This document shows, piece by piece, positions 6,220-14,402 of a stretch of DNA of 35,425 nucleotides. How positions within the stretch are numbered: position 1 is the stretch's first letter; every line of letters starts with the position of its first letter. The notes beneath the pieces were generated by a model. The model was not told the DNA's origin. It did not search any database and was given only the letters and a program-made list of their open reading frames with translations. The translations under genes and the position numbers were made by a program. The stretch covers positions 1 through 35,425 of the forward strand of contig JAGQIK010000218.1 of assembly GCA_020431405.1 (NCBI GenBank), given 5' to 3'. This stretch comes from Myxococcales bacterium. GTDB taxonomy: Bacteria > Myxococcota_A > Polyangia > GCA-2747355.

Positions 6220-8067
6220 TCAGCTCGCGACGGCGTGCCCGCCGCGGGCTCCCGCTGTGACCGCTTCTGCTTGGTCGAGTGTGCGCTCGAAGACCGACAT
6301 GGCCACGTCGTAGGGGGCCGTGGTCGTGAGGTCTACGCCTGCTGCGGCGAGGATGTCGATCGGCGCGGCGCGACACCCCGCGTAGAGCAGATTCTCGATG
6401 TAGCGATCGCGCGCGGGCGCGCCGTGCGCGAGGATGCCCTCGGCGAGCGCGGTGGCTGCCGTGATGCCCGTTACGTACTGGAACACGTAGAAATTGTAAT
6501 AGAAGTGCGGGATGTATGCCCACTCCATGCCGTACGCGTCGTCGACGGTGACGACACCCTCGTCGTGGCCGTAGTAGCGGCGGGCGACGGCGAGGTAGCG
6601 CTCGCTGAGCGCGTCGGCGGTGATCGCCTCGCCGGCCTCGGCGAGTCGGTACACGTCGAGCTCGAACTCGGCGAACATCGCTTGGCGAAAGAACGTCTGC
6701 CGAAAGCCCTCGAGCTGCTCGCCGAGCAGGAACAGCCGGCGCTTGCCTTTCAGCTCGGCGAGCAAGTGCTCTGCGAGCAGGTGCTCGTTGAGCGTCGAGG
6801 CGACTTCGGCGACGAAGATCGAGTAGTCCGCCTTGGGGTAGGGCTGCTGCTGGTTGGAGTAGTAGGAGTGCATGGCGTGGCCCATCTCGTGGGCCATCAT
6901 GCTCAGCGAGTTGAAGTCTTCGAGGTAGTTGCCGAGCACGTAGGGGTGGACGTCGTAGGCGCTGCCGTCCATGTAGGCGCCGCTGCGCTTGCCCTTGTTG
7001 GGCAGCGCGTCGATCCAGCCGCTCTTGGGCTGCAGGCCGCGTTCGAGGGCGCGCGCATAGTCGCTGCCCAGCGGGGCCATCGCCTCGACCAGCGTGCGGC
7101 ATCCTTTGTCGTACGGGAACTTGAGCCGGACCTTCTCTACGATCGGCGGATAGAGATCGTAGTAGCGCAGCGAGTCGAGGCCGAGCAGATCGCGGCGCAG
7201 CGCGAGGTAGCGGTGCAGCTTGGGCAGGTGCTTGTTCACCGCCGAGATCATGTTGGTGTAGACGTCGACCGGGATCTCGTCGGGATCGAGCGCGGCTTCG
7301 AGCGCGCTGTCGTAGCGGCGCGCGCGCGCGTAGATCAGGTTCGCGTTGACCTGCGCGCCGAGCAGCGAGGCGAAGGTGTTTTTGAAGCCGGCGAAGGTGC
7401 TGAAGAAGGCGTCGAAGGTTCGTTTGCGCACGGCGCGGTCGGCGCTGGCGCGATAGCGCGCGAAGAGCGCCTGCGAGAGCTGCACCTCGCGGCCCTTCTC
7501 GTCGGTGATGCGCGGAAACGTCAGGTCGGCGCCGGTGAAGGCCGAGTAGGTGTTGTGTCCGGCGTCCTGCATCAGCGACGTGCGGGCGAGCAGCGCCTCC
7601 TCTTTGGGCGACAGCACGTGCTTCTTCTGGCGCAGCAGCTCGCGGAGGTAGCGATCGTAGTCGGCAAAGCGCGGGTCAGCGATGTAGTCGCGGATCGTTT
7701 TGGTGGGCAGCGCGAGCAGCTGCGGCTCGATGAACGCGCTGGTGGCGCGCAGATCGGCGCCGACCTTGTCGATCACCTCGCGCATCGCTTGATAGGTGGT
7801 GACGCGCGTGTCCTCGTCGTTGCGGCGCGCGGCGTAGCTCTCGAGGCGCCCTAGTCGGCGATTGGCCTCGAAGAGCGTTTGCAGGCACGTCAGCACGGCC
7901 TCGGCGCCGTTGCCGAGCGTGCCGCGGAGCGCGGCGAGGGTGCTGAAGCTCGCCGCGAGCGCCTCGCGCTCGGCGTGCCAGGCCTTGTCGTTCTTGAAGA
8001 GATGGCGCGTATTCCAGCGGCGCTCTTCAGGGATGGTGCTGCGCTCGGGGACGGTGCTCTTGGCCAT
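6220..8067 (-). CDS. pepF: Oligoendopeptidase F (M3 family zinc peptidase)
   Basis: This 615-residue cytoplasmic metallopeptidase cleaves short peptides. The zinc motif HEMGH lies at about 393-397 (AHEMGHAMHSYYS), and downstream family motifs are present (FVAEVASTLNEHLL, YGMEWAYIPHFYYNFYVFQY). The length equals that of PepF. The frame stays open to 8244, but the ATG at 8067 is preferred: it has a GGAG ribosome-binding site 7 bases upstream, it gives the standard PepF N-terminus (PEERRWNTRHLF), and the longer form would overlap the divergent tetR gene. The intergenic region has inverted repeats that may bind the neighbouring TetR regulator. Confidence 0.93.
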   Translation of the reverse strand: MAKSTVPERSTIPEERRWNTRHLFKNDKAWHAEREALAASFSTLAALRGTLGNGAEAVLTCLQTLFEANRRLGRLESYAARRNDEDTRVTTYQAMREVIDKVGADLRATSAFIEPQLLALPTKTIRDYIADPRFADYDRYLRELLRQKKHVLSPKEEALLARTSLMQDAGHNTYSAFTGADLTFPRITDEKGREVQLSQALFARYRASADRAVRKRTFDAFFSTFAGFKNTFASLLGAQVNANLIYARARRYDSALEAALDPDEIPVDVYTNMISAVNKHLPKLHRYLALRRDLLGLDSLRYYDLYPPIVEKVRLKFPYDKGCRTLVEAMAPLGSDYARALERGLQPKSGWIDALPNKGKRSGAYMDGSAYDVHPYVLGNYLEDFNSLSMMAHEMGHAMHSYYSNQQQPYPKADYSIFVAEVASTLNEHLLAEHLLAELKGKRRLFLLGEQLEGFRQTFFRQAMFAEFELDVYRLAEAGEAITADALSERYLAVARRYYGHDEGVVTVDDAYGMEWAYIPHFYYNFYVFQYVTGITAATALAEGILAHGAPARDRYIENLLYAGCRAAPIDILAAAGVDLTTTAPYDVAMSVFERTLDQAEAVTAGARGGHAVAS

Positions 8068-8882: not shown

Positions 8883-10700
8883 ATGACCACCGCCCAGTTC
8901 AGCTCCGTTCCTGACATGTTCTTCAAGCGCGTCAGCGAGACGCCCGATCGTCCTGCCTACCAGTACCCCAAGGGAGACGATGGCTGGGCGAAGCTCACGT
9001 GGCAGCAGTCCGCCGACCGCGTGCGCGCGATCGCGTCGGGCTTGCTCTCGCTCGGCATCGAGCTCGAACAGCGCGTGGCGATCCTCGCGTCGACGCGCAT
9101 GGAGTGGGTGCTCGCCGACCTCGGCATCCTCAGCGCCGGCGGCGCGACGACGACGGTCTATCCGTCCAACACGCCGGCCGAGTGTCAGTACATCCTCGCC
9201 GATTCGGACACGCGCGCGATCTTCGCCGAGGACGAAGGGCAGGTCGCCAAGCTCGTCGAGGTCAAAGACCAGCTGCCGAACCTCAAGAAGGTGATCATCT
9301 TCGACGGCAGCGGCGGACACGACGGCTGGGTGATCACGCTCGCCGAGCTGGAAGAGATCGGCAGGAAGCGCCTCGCCGAGAAGGCCGACGAGCTCGACGG
9401 CGTGCTCGCGTCGCTCAAGCCCGATCACCTCGCGACCTTGATCTACACCTCGGGCACGACGGGGCAGCCCAAGGGCGTCGAGCTGGTTCACGACTGCTGG
9501 ATCTTCACCGGAACGGCAGTGGCCGAGACGGGCATCCTCAACATCGAGGACCATCAGTATCTTTGGCTGCCGCTCTCGCACAGCTTCGGCAAGGTGCTCG
9601 AGGCGGTGCAGCTGGTGGTTGGCTTCGAGACGACCGTCGATGGGCGCATCCCCAAGCTCGTCGAAAACCTCGCGGTGGTGAAGCCGACGTTCATGGCGGC
9701 GGCGCCGCGCATCTTCGAGAAGGTCTACAACAAGGTGATCACCGGCGCGCAGGACGCCGGCGGCATGAAGTACAAGATCTTCACCTGGGCGATGCGCGTC
9801 GGGCGCGAGGTCTCGCAGGTCAAGCAGCAGGGCAAAGACCCGGCTGGTCTGCTCGGCCTGAAGTACCGCTGGGCCAACAAGCTGGTGTTCAGCAAGCTGA
9901 AGAACCTCTTCGGCGGGCGGGTGCGCTTCTTCATCTCCGGCAGCGCGCCGCTGTCGCGCGACATCGCCGAGTTCTTCCACGCCGCGGGCGTGCTGATCCT
10001 CGAAGGCTACGGGCTGACCGAGTCGAGCGCGGCGTCGTTCGTCAACCGGCCCGAGGCGTTCAAGTTCGGCACGGTGGGCAAGGCGGTGGGAACGACCGAG
10101 CTGCGCATCGCGCCCGAGGACGGCGAGATCCTGATGCGCGGGCGCGGCATCATGCGCGGCTATCACAACAAGCCGGACATGACCAAAGAGGTGCTCGCCG
10201 ACGACGGCTGGTTCGCGACGGGCGACATCGGCGAGGTGGACGACGAGGGCTTCCTCAAGATCACCGACCGCAAGAAGGACCTCATCAAGACGTCCGGCGG
10301 TAAGTACGTCGCGCCGCAGATGCTCGAGGGCAAGCTCAAGGCGCTCTGCCCCTACGTCAGCCAGGTCATCGTGCACGGCGACAAGCGCAACTTCTGTACG
10401 GCGCTGATCACCATCGACGAGGAGTCGATCCAGAAGTGGGCGCAGGACTCGGGGCTGGGCAGTCTGTCCTACGCCGACCTGACCCAGCACGCTAAGGTGC
10501 GCGAGATCGTCCAGCACAGCGTCGATGACCTCAACAGCCAGCTCGCGAGCTACGAGACGATCAAGAAGTTCGCCATCCTCGACAAGGACCTCTCGATCGA
10601 GGAGGGCGAGCTGACGCCGAGCCTCAAGGTCAAGCGCAAGGTCGTCGAGAAGAAGCACGTCGAGATCCTCGACGGTTTCTACGCAGGCGCCCTCAAGTAG
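8883..10700 (+). CDS. Long-chain fatty acid-CoA ligase (AMP-forming)
   Basis: This 605-residue adenylate-forming enzyme activates fatty acids with ATP and CoA. Motifs: the phosphate loop YTSGTTGQPKG (about 188-198), EGYGLTESSA, the hinge region GWFATGDIGEVDDEGFLKITDRKKDLIKTSGGK, and a C-terminal domain with SLKVKRK. The FAA1-like layout (COG1022 type) and length fit long-chain substrates. The start is the second ATG of an ATGATG pair, because AGGAGG (8873-8878) is 4 bases from 8883 and only 1 base from 8880. It is probably controlled with, or by, the upstream TetR gene. Chain-length preference cannot be read from sequence. Confidence 0.93.
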   Translation: MTTAQFSSVPDMFFKRVSETPDRPAYQYPKGDDGWAKLTWQQSADRVRAIASGLLSLGIELEQRVAILASTRMEWVLADLGILSAGGATTTVYPSNTPAECQYILADSDTRAIFAEDEGQVAKLVEVKDQLPNLKKVIIFDGSGGHDGWVITLAELEEIGRKRLAEKADELDGVLASLKPDHLATLIYTSGTTGQPKGVELVHDCWIFTGTAVAETGILNIEDHQYLWLPLSHSFGKVLEAVQLVVGFETTVDGRIPKLVENLAVVKPTFMAAAPRIFEKVYNKVITGAQDAGGMKYKIFTWAMRVGREVSQVKQQGKDPAGLLGLKYRWANKLVFSKLKNLFGGRVRFFISGSAPLSRDIAEFFHAAGVLILEGYGLTESSAASFVNRPEAFKFGTVGKAVGTTELRIAPEDGEILMRGRGIMRGYHNKPDMTKEVLADDGWFATGDIGEVDDEGFLKITDRKKDLIKTSGGKYVAPQMLEGKLKALCPYVSQVIVHGDKRNFCTALITIDEESIQKWAQDSGLGSLSYADLTQHAKVREIVQHSVDDLNSQLASYETIKKFAILDKDLSIEEGELTPSLKVKRKVVEKKHVEILDGFYAGALK

Positions 10701-10824: not shown

Positions 10825-11880
10825 GTGTATGTGCCGCCGAAACGCCTACAGCTATTCGCCCTCCTCGCCGCGTTTGGTGTGCTGACCGTCGCCTGCGGTC
10901 CTGGCAGCGCGCAGCCCGATCCGCCGCGGCCCAACATCAACCTCGTCGACAGCTCGCCGCCGCCGCCGCCTGGCGTCGAAGCGGGCGTGCTGCCGCCCGA
11001 CTTCACGGTCGACATCGGGCCGCCGCCGCCGCGCAACGATGCGGGCGTGCGACCCGACCTGCCGTCGCTGATGCCGGACACGGTCTCACCGCCGCCGCCC
11101 CAGCAGGACAGCGGCACGCCGCCGCCGCCGCCGGGCGACTACGACTATCGCAAGCACCTCAGCTTCGTCAGCATCAGCAAGCGCAACGCTTCGTGTCCCA
11201 CGTCCTACGGCACCTACTACTGCGACGTGCTGCTTCACACGCAGCAGCCGTACATGTCTGCCGACGTGATGACCAACATCCACGAGACGCAGCACTTCAT
11301 GGCGCACGAGCACGACTCGTCGACCGCGGCGGCCGACAAGTTCATCTACCTCTCGGGTGGACAGGGCGCGTTCTTCCCGGAGCCGCCGCTGGTGACGAGC
11401 GACATCTACAGCTCGATCAAGTGGCAGGGCTCAGTGCACAGCACGTACATCTCGGGGCGGCCGAGCCAGGCGCTGGGCGAAAACATCGTCGACGAGTGGC
11501 GCGCCTACATCACCGAGGAGATCGTCGCCATCGAATGGTGCGCGATCAAAAACCAGACCTCGGGCTTCTCCGGCCTCGTGCTCGGCGGCATCCAGTTTCT
11601 CTACTACAACGCCGCCATGCTGCACGCCGTCGACACCAAGAAGCCCGGTTGGCTGCAACAAAACCCAGCCGCACCCGCCATCTTCGCCATGCTCGCCGAA
11701 GAGACCAAACGCTACACCATCGACCGCGGCGTCAAGGTCGGCCTATTCACCAGCATCACCAACCAGAAGATGCTCGACCTGCTCAACCGCCTGCGCACCG
11801 ATCCCGCAGAAGCGCACATCCGCCAGACGCTCACCAAGCTCTTCGGTTCCGTCTGGACCCAACGCGTCCTCGGCTTCTAG
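10825..11880 (+). CDS. Putative zinc-metalloprotease-like lipoprotein (HETQH)
   Basis: This 351-residue protein starts at a GTG (10825; a second GTG at 10831 is equally possible). A signal peptide ends in the lipobox LTVAC with Cys24. A linker rich in Pro, Asp and Gly (about 28-105) contains several runs of five prolines and DAG/DSG motifs typical of myxobacterial lipoproteins. The globular domain has NIHETQHFMAHE, an HExxH zinc-binding motif with His153, Glu154 and His157. About 65 residues later, NIVDEWRAYITEE could give the third ligand (Glu224 or Glu231/232), as in gluzincins. Four cysteines (124, 133, 239 and the lipid-bearing one) are visible. No known family is recognised with confidence, so protease activity is an inference. 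The RAYT element begins at the last base of its stop codon. Confidence 0.72.
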   Translation: MYVPPKRLQLFALLAAFGVLTVACGPGSAQPDPPRPNINLVDSSPPPPPGVEAGVLPPDFTVDIGPPPPRNDAGVRPDLPSLMPDTVSPPPPQQDSGTPPPPPGDYDYRKHLSFVSISKRNASCPTSYGTYYCDVLLHTQQPYMSADVMTNIHETQHFMAHEHDSSTAAADKFIYLSGGQGAFFPEPPLVTSDIYSSIKWQGSVHSTYISGRPSQALGENIVDEWRAYITEEIVAIEWCAIKNQTSGFSGLVLGGIQFLYYNAAMLHAVDTKKPGWLQQNPAAPAIFAMLAEETKRYTIDRGVKVGLFTSITNQKMLDLLNRLRTDPAEAHIRQTLTKLFGSVWTQRVLGF

Positions 11881-11939
11881 GGGTCACTCTCTGGTCCGCA
11901 CACGCCTGAAATCAAAGGGCGCAAAACCCACAATGACAT
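11880..11939 (+). repeat. Left inverted end of RAYT element
   Basis: This 60-base arm is the partner of 12677-12736. The first 11 bases (GGGGTCACTCT) and last 13 bases (CCCACAATGACAT) are identical to the other arm. An internal short stem (CGCC at 11903-11906 with GGCG at 11918-11921) is possible. Confidence 0.85.
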
Positions 11940-11972: not shown

Positions 11973-12629
11973 CTACTTCGCGGACGTGCCGTCAGGCCGC
12001 CGCAGGCGCAGCGTGTATTGGTCGGGCGAGAGCTCCTCTGCAGCCGCGGTACGAGTCTGCGGCGGGGTGGCTTCGTCGCGTTCGTGCAGGCAGCACGCGT
12101 AGCATGCGGCGCGTTCGCCGATGGTGTAACCCAGCTGAGCGTACCAGCGGCTCGGGTGCCAGATGCGAGGCAGGTCACCTGGTATCGGGACGCCGAGATG
12201 GTAGCGCGCAGTCGACCAGGTGTAGTCCTCTGGCGCCTCGACAAGACCTGCCCGTACTGGGTTGAGGTCAACGTAGACAGTTATCTCGGCCAGCGCCCGC
12301 TCGTCCGCGACGGGCTCCGACCAGAAACGCTGCTCGAACAGCTTGCCTGTTGCTCGACGCGCGCGGTTGCGCCGCTGCGCGTAGCGTTGCGCGATGTACT
12401 TGACGAACTTGCTCAGCTCCTCGGCCGTGCGAGGCGTAGCGACGAGATGAACGTGGTTGGTCATCAACGCGTAGGCGTGCACGTCGGTGCAGTGCTCGTG
12501 CGAGGCGGCAGCTGCGAGCCTCAGGAAGAGGCGGTAGTCGCGTGGATACGAGAAGAGTCGTCGACGGTTGTTTCCGCGCAGAATGACATGATGGGGTGCG
12601 CCGGCGATGACGATGCGACGTTGTCTCAT
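11973..12629 (-). CDS. REP-associated tyrosine transposase (Y1/HUH family)
   Basis: This 218-residue single-domain HUH nuclease is of the TnpA-REP type. The metal-binding HUH motif is in ALMTNHVHLV (His59 and His61). The catalytic tyrosine is probably Tyr83 in QRYAQRRNRARR, followed by the family motifs GKLFEQRF and YVDLNPVRAGLV, then a C-terminal tail. These enzymes nick and rejoin single-stranded DNA at REP hairpins. The frame appears intact with no frameshift, and length is normal. The gene occupies nearly all of an 857-bp element with 60-bp inverted ends. No passenger gene is present. Confidence 0.92.
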   Translation of the reverse strand: MRQRRIVIAGAPHHVILRGNNRRRLFSYPRDYRLFLRLAAAASHEHCTDVHAYALMTNHVHLVATPRTAEELSKFVKYIAQRYAQRRNRARRATGKLFEQRFWSEPVADERALAEITVYVDLNPVRAGLVEAPEDYTWSTARYHLGVPIPGDLPRIWHPSRWYAQLGYTIGERAACYACCLHERDEATPPQTRTAAAEELSPDQYTLRLRRPDGTSAK

Positions 12630-12676: not shown

Positions 12677-12736
12677 ATGTCATTGTGGGCTAGGAGCGCT
12701 TTGATCTCGAGCGCTTGCGGAGCATAGAGTGACCCC
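12677..12736 (-). repeat. Right inverted end of RAYT element, partly coding
   Basis: Reverse complement of the left arm with 12 mismatches in 60. Bases 12690-12736 are also the 3' end of the beta-helix gene. The arm contains AGCGCT-N9-AGCGCT (12695-12715), a 6-bp stem with a 9-base loop that resembles a REP hairpin. Confidence 0.85.
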
Positions 12737-14402
12737 AGAGGAGGAGGAGGGGTAGCGCCGGCAATCCGTTGCTGATGGGGGCGCCGCTGGTGTTGCAGCC
12801 GCCTTTCATTTCGCCGCCGTTGTTGTTGTTGTTGTTGTTGCTGTTGTTGGGCGCGGTGGCGGTGTCGCCGGTGGCGGTGCTGTCGGAGGCGGGTGCGGTG
12901 AGGGTGTCGTCGCTGGTGCCGGCGTCGGGGGCGGGGGCGATGGTGTCGGAGCTGGCGCCGCTGTCGGCGCTCGGCGACGTGCTGTCGACGGTGGCGTCGG
13001 GTGCGGGCGGCGGTGGTGGTGGCGGCGTTGTGGAGTATTCGTAGGCGCCGACGTCGACGCCGGCGCCTTGCGGGCGCGCCACGCCGAGGATGTCGGTGGC
13101 GGGGGCGTACTGCGCGGCGCCTTGGTCGATGGCGGCGGCGGTGGGCAGCAGGCGCACGTCGTAGTTGGCGACGTCGACGAAGAGCTTGCTCGGGTCCGTG
13201 ATCTTGATGTTGTGGTCTTCGGTGACGCCGGACGCGGCGCTGCTGAAGTCGGTGGCGAGGTTGTTGCGCACGACGCAGCCTTGCGGCGCGGTGCCGTTCT
13301 TGTGGTTGGTGATGCGGATCCACGGTGGGCCGGGCGTGCTGTTGTTGGGGTCGAGCACGGTGTTGTTGACGATGCGTACGTTCTTGGCGCCGTAAACCGA
13401 GATGCCGTGCCAGTGGTCGGTGATGATGACGTTGTTCTCGATGACCCAGTCGACGAAAGTGCCGTCGAACATGCCGATGCCTTGCAGCGTGCAGCGCAGT
13501 TTCTGGTTGGGGTCGGTGTAGTTGATGATGCGGTTGCCGCGCAGCACGACGCCGGTGACGGTGCCGGTGCCGACCTTGCCATCGCTGCCGCGCGACCACG
13601 ACTGGAAGCCGTCGTCGTGGTTGTCGTTGACGTCGTAGCAGTTGCGCACGGTGTTGTTCTCGAAGACGGTGTAGTCGCCGAGCCCGCGCAGGCCGTCGCC
13701 GGAGAAGTTCTCGACGGTGTTGCCGATGACCAGCGACTTGCTGGCGCCGACGCTGATGCCGAAGTTGATGTTGCGCACGAGGTTGTCGCGCAGCGTGATC
13801 TCGCTGCCGCTGGCGCTGATGCCGTTAGCCGCCTTGGTGTCCCAGTCGTTGGCGCTCCAGGCGGAGATGTCGGCGATGGTGCTGATGGTGCAGCCCTCGA
13901 CGGTGACCTTGGAGGTCGGGCCGCTGTAGTTGTGCGACTCGACGGCGACGATGGCGGCGCGCGAGCTGCTCGCGGCGTGCGCCGGGCTGACGTCGAAGCC
14001 CTTGATGTGCCAGTTGCTGCTCGAGGTCACCACCACGCGCGAAAGCCGCGGCTTGGCGCTGGGCGCCGCGGCGATGGTGATGTCGCTGGCGTTGTAGTAG
14101 CCCGTGAAGCTCAGCTCGCCGTAGAAGCCGTCGGCGACGACGATCGTGTCGCCGGCTTTGAGCAGCGCGCCGGCGTTGCGCGCCGCTAGCTGTGCGCCGC
14201 TGGCGTAGGGCAGGCTGGCCCAGTTGCGGCTCTCGATCTTGTTCTGGTCGAAGAGATGCTTCAGCGATTTCCACGGCTTGGCCACGCTGCCATCGTTCGT
14301 GTCCGCGCCCGTCTGCGCGTCGACGTAGTAGGTCTTGGCCTCGGCGAGGCCGGCGGCGGCGGTCAGCGTTGCCACGAGCGTGGCGGCGAGCAGCGGTCGC
14401 AT
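12690..14402 (-). CDS. Secreted right-handed beta-helix protein with MYXO-CTERM-like tail
   Basis: This 570-residue protein starts at the ATG at 14402, with GGAGGG 7 bases upstream. A Sec signal peptide (MRPLLAATLVATLTAAAGLAEA) is followed by KTYYVDAQTGADTNDGS, the usual entry to a parallel beta-helix, and then PbH1-type repeats (VIGNTVENF, VFENNTVRNC, VIENNVII, VRIVNNTVLD). A Pro-rich, then Asp/Ser/Thr-rich, linker ends in an Asn run. The tail has Gly-Gly-Cys, a hydrophobic stretch (LPALPLLLLW) and a basic cluster (RKRSRSKRS), the layout of MYXO-CTERM sorting signals. Such folds are often polysaccharide lyases or adhesins; no catalytic residues can be assigned. The frame continues upstream into pbpC without a stop, but that part is antisense-free shadow. 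The basic cluster is encoded by the RAYT end. Confidence 0.82.
   Translation of the reverse strand: MRPLLAATLVATLTAAAGLAEAKTYYVDAQTGADTNDGSVAKPWKSLKHLFDQNKIESRNWASLPYASGAQLAARNAGALLKAGDTIVVADGFYGELSFTGYYNASDITIAAAPSAKPRLSRVVVTSSSNWHIKGFDVSPAHAASSSRAAIVAVESHNYSGPTSKVTVEGCTISTIADISAWSANDWDTKAANGISASGSEITLRDNLVRNINFGISVGASKSLVIGNTVENFSGDGLRGLGDYTVFENNTVRNCYDVNDNHDDGFQSWSRGSDGKVGTGTVTGVVLRGNRIINYTDPNQKLRCTLQGIGMFDGTFVDWVIENNVIITDHWHGISVYGAKNVRIVNNTVLDPNNSTPGPPWIRITNHKNGTAPQGCVVRNNLATDFSSAASGVTEDHNIKITDPSKLFVDVANYDVRLLPTAAAIDQGAAQYAPATDILGVARPQGAGVDVGAYEYSTTPPPPPPPAPDATVDSTSPSADSGASSDTIAPAPDAGTSDDTLTAPASDSTATGDTATAPNNSNNNNNNNGGEMKGGCNTSGAPISNGLPALPLLLLWGHSMLRKRSRSKRS
12820..12849. repeat. Trinucleotide repeat (TTG)7-CTG-(TTG)2
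   Basis: It encodes the Asn-rich stretch (one Ser among nine Asn) before the sorting tail of the beta-helix protein. Slippage here would change linker length in frame. Confidence 0.9.

Follow-up and report, generated by a model that had tools for sequence, protein, structure and literature searches.

In one draft myxobacterial genome, the arms of a dispersed mobile element encode the C-terminal ends of six secreted proteins, each of which has a Cys motif and a hydrophobic stretch of the MYXO-CTERM kind just upstream of the arm. We consider it fairly probable that arms of this TIRYT/TIRtron family replaced the native ends of sorting tails and that the arms at such genes were kept or shaped for charge. 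The window, that is, the whole stretch of DNA that was analyzed (35,425 nucleotides, contig JAGQIK010000218.1), holds one of these genes, together with the element that cuts it (Table 1).

Table 1. Features of the window element and its flanks, and the re-tailed genes elsewhere in the genome
Feature	Location	Position	Strand	Remark
Secreted beta-helix protein (choice-of-anchor Q), 570 aa; re-tailed gene	window	12690..14402	-	3' end inside right arm
Element-encoded C-terminal residues GHSMLRKRSRSKRS and stop TAG	window	12690..12734	-	from the sequence
Native part of MYXO-CTERM-like tail, GGCNTSGAPISNGLPALPLLLL	window	12738..12803	-	from the sequence; orthologues share the layout
Right arm (terminal inverted repeat), GGGGTCAC outermost	window	12677..12736	-	beta-helix gene reads through
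Left arm of the same element	window	11880..11939	+	first G (11880) completes the neighbor's TAG stop
RAYT-type Y1 transposase, 218 aa	window	11973..12629	-	Pfam Y1_Tnp and NF047646
Convergent neighbor gene, ending TA|G at left arm	window	10825..11880	+	probable insertion-target side
Re-tailed gene, beta-helix protein	C21			
Re-tailed gene, trypsin	C547			
Re-tailed gene, phosphodiester glycosidase (NAGPA)	C548			
Re-tailed genes on both flanks of one element	C589		plus and minus	

The window copy of the element is 855 bp long and carries the only full-length RAYT gene detected in the genome. The predicted enzyme falls within the RAYT subfamily of Y1 (HUH) transposases, with 39.8 bits for Pfam Y1_Tnp and 80.7 bits for NF047646, the latter only just above the cut-off of 80. 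The two 60-nt arms are 80% complementary and lie 737 nt apart. On the minus strand, the beta-helix reading frame runs into the right arm and ends at 12690 (...LPLLLL-W-GHSMLRKRSRSKRS-TAG): the W codon straddles the element boundary (12737/12736), and the following 14 residues (12734-12693) and the stop (12692-12690) lie within the arm. The earlier note had described this double role of the right arm, and its coordinates are correct. It had also observed that the codons differing between the two arms are all non-synonymous, which holds for 8/8 codons with the stop included, and had concluded that the right arm gained charge and a stop codon. Nothing follows from this comparison: the right arm is close to the family consensus (87% identity) and its TAG stop, like several of its basic residues, belongs to that consensus; the collected genomic copies identify the left arm (AAAACCC), which had been taken as the reference, as the deviant one. 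Moreover, once two arms have diverged, most of the codons that differ will be non-synonymous in any case.

The arm is a dispersed repeat and not a sequence captured from the beta-helix gene. Indeed, a 141-bp query gave 55 matches in the host genome (11.2 Mb in 733 contigs), and the pattern GTCACTC-N40-ACAATGACA gave 70 exact arm matches of 56 nt, against 0 for the reversed control, which places the overlap of arm and tail beyond chance. A profile search recovered 95 arms in 55 fetched loci, and the placement and tail analyses used 93 arms from about 55 elements. These are mostly 149 bp long, nearly all paired elements measuring 148-150 bp. The element ends fit the GGGGWSAS motif of published TIRtrons, and the combination of a RAYT-like gene, long inverted repeats with such ends and a family of dispersed copies corresponds to the TIRtron/TIRYT definition. 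We rejected the REP label, which denotes imperfect palindromes of 20-40 bp with a GTAG-type tag, because the arms are 60-bp inverted repeats with no such tag and no conserved internal stem: only 4 near-invariant pairs (-0.4 kcal/mol) were found across the 70 arms.

The strict element pattern had 0 matches among the GTDB contigs from outside the host genome, and 58 relatives yielded no true copy, the single hit having a shorter spacing and reading as chance. No matching long inverted repeat surrounds the gene for the nearest RAYT relatives (45%, G051). Three genomes of one family (G011, G019 and G027) contain other paired GGGGTCA element families with an inner TTGACA or similar sequence. At two loci of the host genome, a gene 3' end is directly duplicated along with the initial 25-28 bp of an element end, over about 47 bp in L097 (G000:C73, about 10257-10303) and about 37 bp in L126 (G000:C489, about 6229-6265).

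Gene calls made around the arms with a codon model trained on the host genome placed the elements mostly at gene 3' ends. For 75/93 arms, a convergent gene ends within positions -50 to +53 relative to the arm; divergent genes were seen at 10/93, and the remainder are unclear or farther off. Among the 93 arms, the gene ends at -2 in 13 cases, the stop then consisting of TA and the first G of the element, and at -3 in 19. A TA flank is present on one side in 19 elements, on both sides in 4 and on neither in 13. A second placement class has a TGA or TAA stop, then YCG, then GGGTCAC (L096, L107, L112, L115, L132 and L137). Y1 enzymes of the IS200/IS605 type insert 3' of their target without duplicating it, and the placement observed here fits insertion of this kind 3' of a presumed TA-containing target. 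In the window, the neighbor gene lies on the probable target side, and insertion cut the convergent beta-helix gene on the opposite side.

Such placement between convergent stops could mean that the elements serve the host at gene ends, for instance as a two-way transcription terminator or an mRNA 3'-end structure, with tail coding as a by-product. By inspection, many elements also have a GC-rich hairpin at their center flanked by AAAA/TTTT. We regard this explanation as very improbable: it accounts neither for the charge bias nor for the excess of MYXO-CTERM-type genes described below, the arms lack a conserved stem, and no maintained pairing was found between the two arms of one element, whose similarity does not exceed that of arms from different elements (P = 0.2).

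In total, 22 genes read into an arm. A native GGC...LLLL part was found in 6/22 of them, compared with about 1-2% of genes, and in 6/6 of these the basic tail is supplied by the arm. The six genes were chosen by this native part (a GC-motif and a Leu-rich stretch) and not by their tails; they represent five elements of one draft genome and are thus a small sample. All six have N-terminal signal peptides, as judged by eye, and by inspection 6/6 present a Cys, a hydrophobic stretch and a basic end on a secreted protein. The tail reads ...GVTL[R/C]... in five and ...WGHSMLRKR... in one. Both tails of one convergent pair of secreted-protein genes come from the single element (L134, G000:C589:6307-6506) that separates them. 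The TIGR03901 cut-off (20 bits) was passed by 3/6 proteins (C21, 30.7; C547, 22.7; C589 minus, 24.6) and failed by the other three (C548, 11.7; C589 plus; the window protein). For the window protein, TIGR03901 gave no match and TIGR03382 gave 10.4 bits, below its cut-off of 15.85; the protein is accordingly not filed as a TIGR03901 member, and the MYXO-CTERM label is weak in this case.

Orthologues of the window gene that lack the element end in native tails such as GGCVMTDAGRIGGVGLWLLLALLLGRRRRHSRR in a genome of the same family (G002) and GGCACRTTPRPGSGPWLLALAALALAQLRRRRR in an uncultured Myxococcales genome; the WGHSMLRKR tail, whose presence in such orthologues would have spoken against the earlier note, was absent from them. 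Other homologues have no such tail: L034 ends after a hydrophobic stretch, and in L225, L226 and L229 the protein stops immediately behind the beta-helix domain. Native Arg-rich tails were also seen in orthologues of the minus-strand gene on C589; those of the C548 gene have MYXO-CTERM-like tails in part, which is weak evidence as several run past the fetched stretch. The collections searched yielded no close relative in which the site is empty. Empty sites were rebuilt from the flanks of three elements; joined one way, the window flanks give ...LPLLLLSRSRGRVGSRRNRRAW, which is suggestive only given a one-base ambiguity at the junction, and the rejoined C548 flanks gave no convincing tail. Since element-free orthologues of 2/6 genes have native Arg-rich tails, the simplest reading of these sequences is that the element replaced a native tail and did not create one. 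Hence, the proposal that a mobile end was the source of the basic part of a sorting signal stands in so far as the arm encodes that part, here and in five more genes with unusually basic arms; what it supplied would have taken the place of a basic tail that relatives still have, the signal itself not being its creation.

The tests reported below were devised after the data had been seen. A peptide that carries a net charge of +3 or more and ends within 20 codons is encoded by 37% of the arms in frame VTL, 18% in frame GHS and none in the third frame. Tails read from random DNA of the same genome are long (mean 43 aa), and 7.5% of them are both short and basic. In the frames used, the six genes have tail charges of 6, 7, 7, 2, 3 and 3, above those of random arms in the same frames (permutation P = 6e-5) and of the other 16 read-in genes (P = 3e-4). 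All six are among the read-in arms and none among the stop-preserving arms (P = 4e-4). Insertions are 4- to 8-fold enriched in MYXO-CTERM-type genes, a figure sensitive to the count of such genes, which was bracketed by TIGR03901 counts: assuming 9000 genes in total, P = 8e-5 with 86 such genes and 6e-3 with 200, and P = 0.03 when the count is limited to the three tails that pass TIGR03901 and is set against 86 genes.

These figures bear on a simpler account, in which insertion at gene ends is merely tolerated, GC-rich tails are Arg-rich by chance, MYXO-CTERM tails are cleaved off anyway so that replacement is forgiven, and no selection on the arm has to be invoked. Over 17 codons, random genomic DNA averages a net charge of +1.95, which the arms do not exceed, and a host MYXO-CTERM model trained on 29 native tails from the same genome gives 8-16 bits for the native part by itself. 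Nonetheless, random tails are rarely both short and basic, and the actual tails scored better than 92-99.8% of them; the arms read by MYXO-CTERM-type genes are also more basic than other arms. Among 279 arm-frame chimeras scored with the host model, the actual tails rank 1, 3, 23, 19, 5 and 16 (combined P = 1.3e-5). We therefore judge plain tolerance to be unlikely. A different pattern was seen in the third frame, where read-in genes meet a stop within 11 codons in 8/8 cases, against 14/85 other arms (P = 3e-6); these arms (L092, L109, L110, L114, L118, L119, L139 and L145) look as if edited for early gene termination. As the six tails are basic and other kinds of read-in gene show the opposite, early stops, the arms seem to fit their host gene.

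The re-tailed signals may instead be decaying, non-functional anchors, their tails having been destroyed by insertion and the genes drifting toward loss of anchoring, with secreted or misplaced proteins as the result. The host model gives them 10-23 bits, compared with 31-52 for native tails (which built the model and are hence favored), half of them fall under the TIGR03901 cut-off, and the C548 tail has a charge of just +2. On the other hand, the reading frames are intact, the tails show elevated, not neutral, charge, and the early stop after VTL, found in about a third of arms, occurs in 0/5 of the VTL-frame tails. We find decay a rather doubtful explanation.

We thus favor replacement followed by retention or shaping for charge, which could have proceeded as follows. 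A tyrosine-transposase element of the TIRYT/TIRtron kind, presumably mobilized by the window RAYT, would have given rise in this one genome to about 55 mostly 149-bp derivatives with paired arms and GGGGTCACTCT outermost. They now sit mainly at the 3' ends of genes; in many cases they immediately follow the TA of a stop codon, and TAG is restored by the first G of the element. A convergent gene that was cut by the insertion now has its end inside an arm. Such cuts may have survived in secreted MYXO-CTERM-type proteins because two of the three arm frames encode a short, often basic and soon-terminated peptide, which would stand in for the original terminus of the sorting tail. The arms at such genes would then have been retained or modified for their positive charge, with selection as the presumed source of the bias, and the re-tailed proteins would still be sorted correctly. 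A more far-reaching version, to which we give little credence, makes the element end a portable C-terminal tag, exchangeable for surface-anchored proteins and selected at the level of the element or the host; under it, the family could invade MYXO-CTERM genes cheaply because two arm frames encode a short basic peptide.

That element ends supply stops or C-termini is already known. The TIRtrons or TIRYTs, TIR-associated RAYT-like transposases with GGGGWSAS ends described in 2013 (PMC3733652), share with the present family a RAYT-like Y1 gene, long TIRs beginning GGGGTCAC and dispersed copies, often dimers, whereas here the dimers are non-autonomous, of nearly fixed length (149 bp) and provide tails for secreted proteins. 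In the text available of that source, sorting signals are not mentioned, and the term Myxo is absent from its main text. According to the same text, GTAG REPs supply TAG stops or lie at ORF ends, and some encode C-terminal residues, as the termini described here do; they differ in being 20-40 bp palindromes with a GTAG tag, and the arms have neither conserved hairpin nor GTAG (PMC3733652). The Coxiella MITEs QMITE1 and QMITE2, with about 50 copies each, are likewise small, often overlap gene 3' ends and add or end C-termini, with pI changes tabulated; they differ in having direct repeats at insertion sites, and no link to protein-sorting tails is made in the portion of PMC5896051 at hand. The MYXO-CTERM/myxosortase system (TIGR03901, MrtX) has the same tripartite layout of Cys motif, hydrophobic stretch and basic end (PMC11980579), while in the six genes an arm of a mobile element encodes the basic end and, in five of them, also contributes GVTL to the hydrophobic stretch. 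We found no description in the literature of recurrent sorting-tail replacement apparently selected for charge.

The sorting tails of MYXO-CTERM, LPXTG and PEP-CTERM proteins show little sequence conservation outside the motif. The six gene ends, with tails rewritten by known DNA, constitute a natural experiment on which substitute tails persist, and they make the minimal requirement for the basic end directly testable. They also present a mobile element whose ends are seemingly near-harmless at gene 3' ends.
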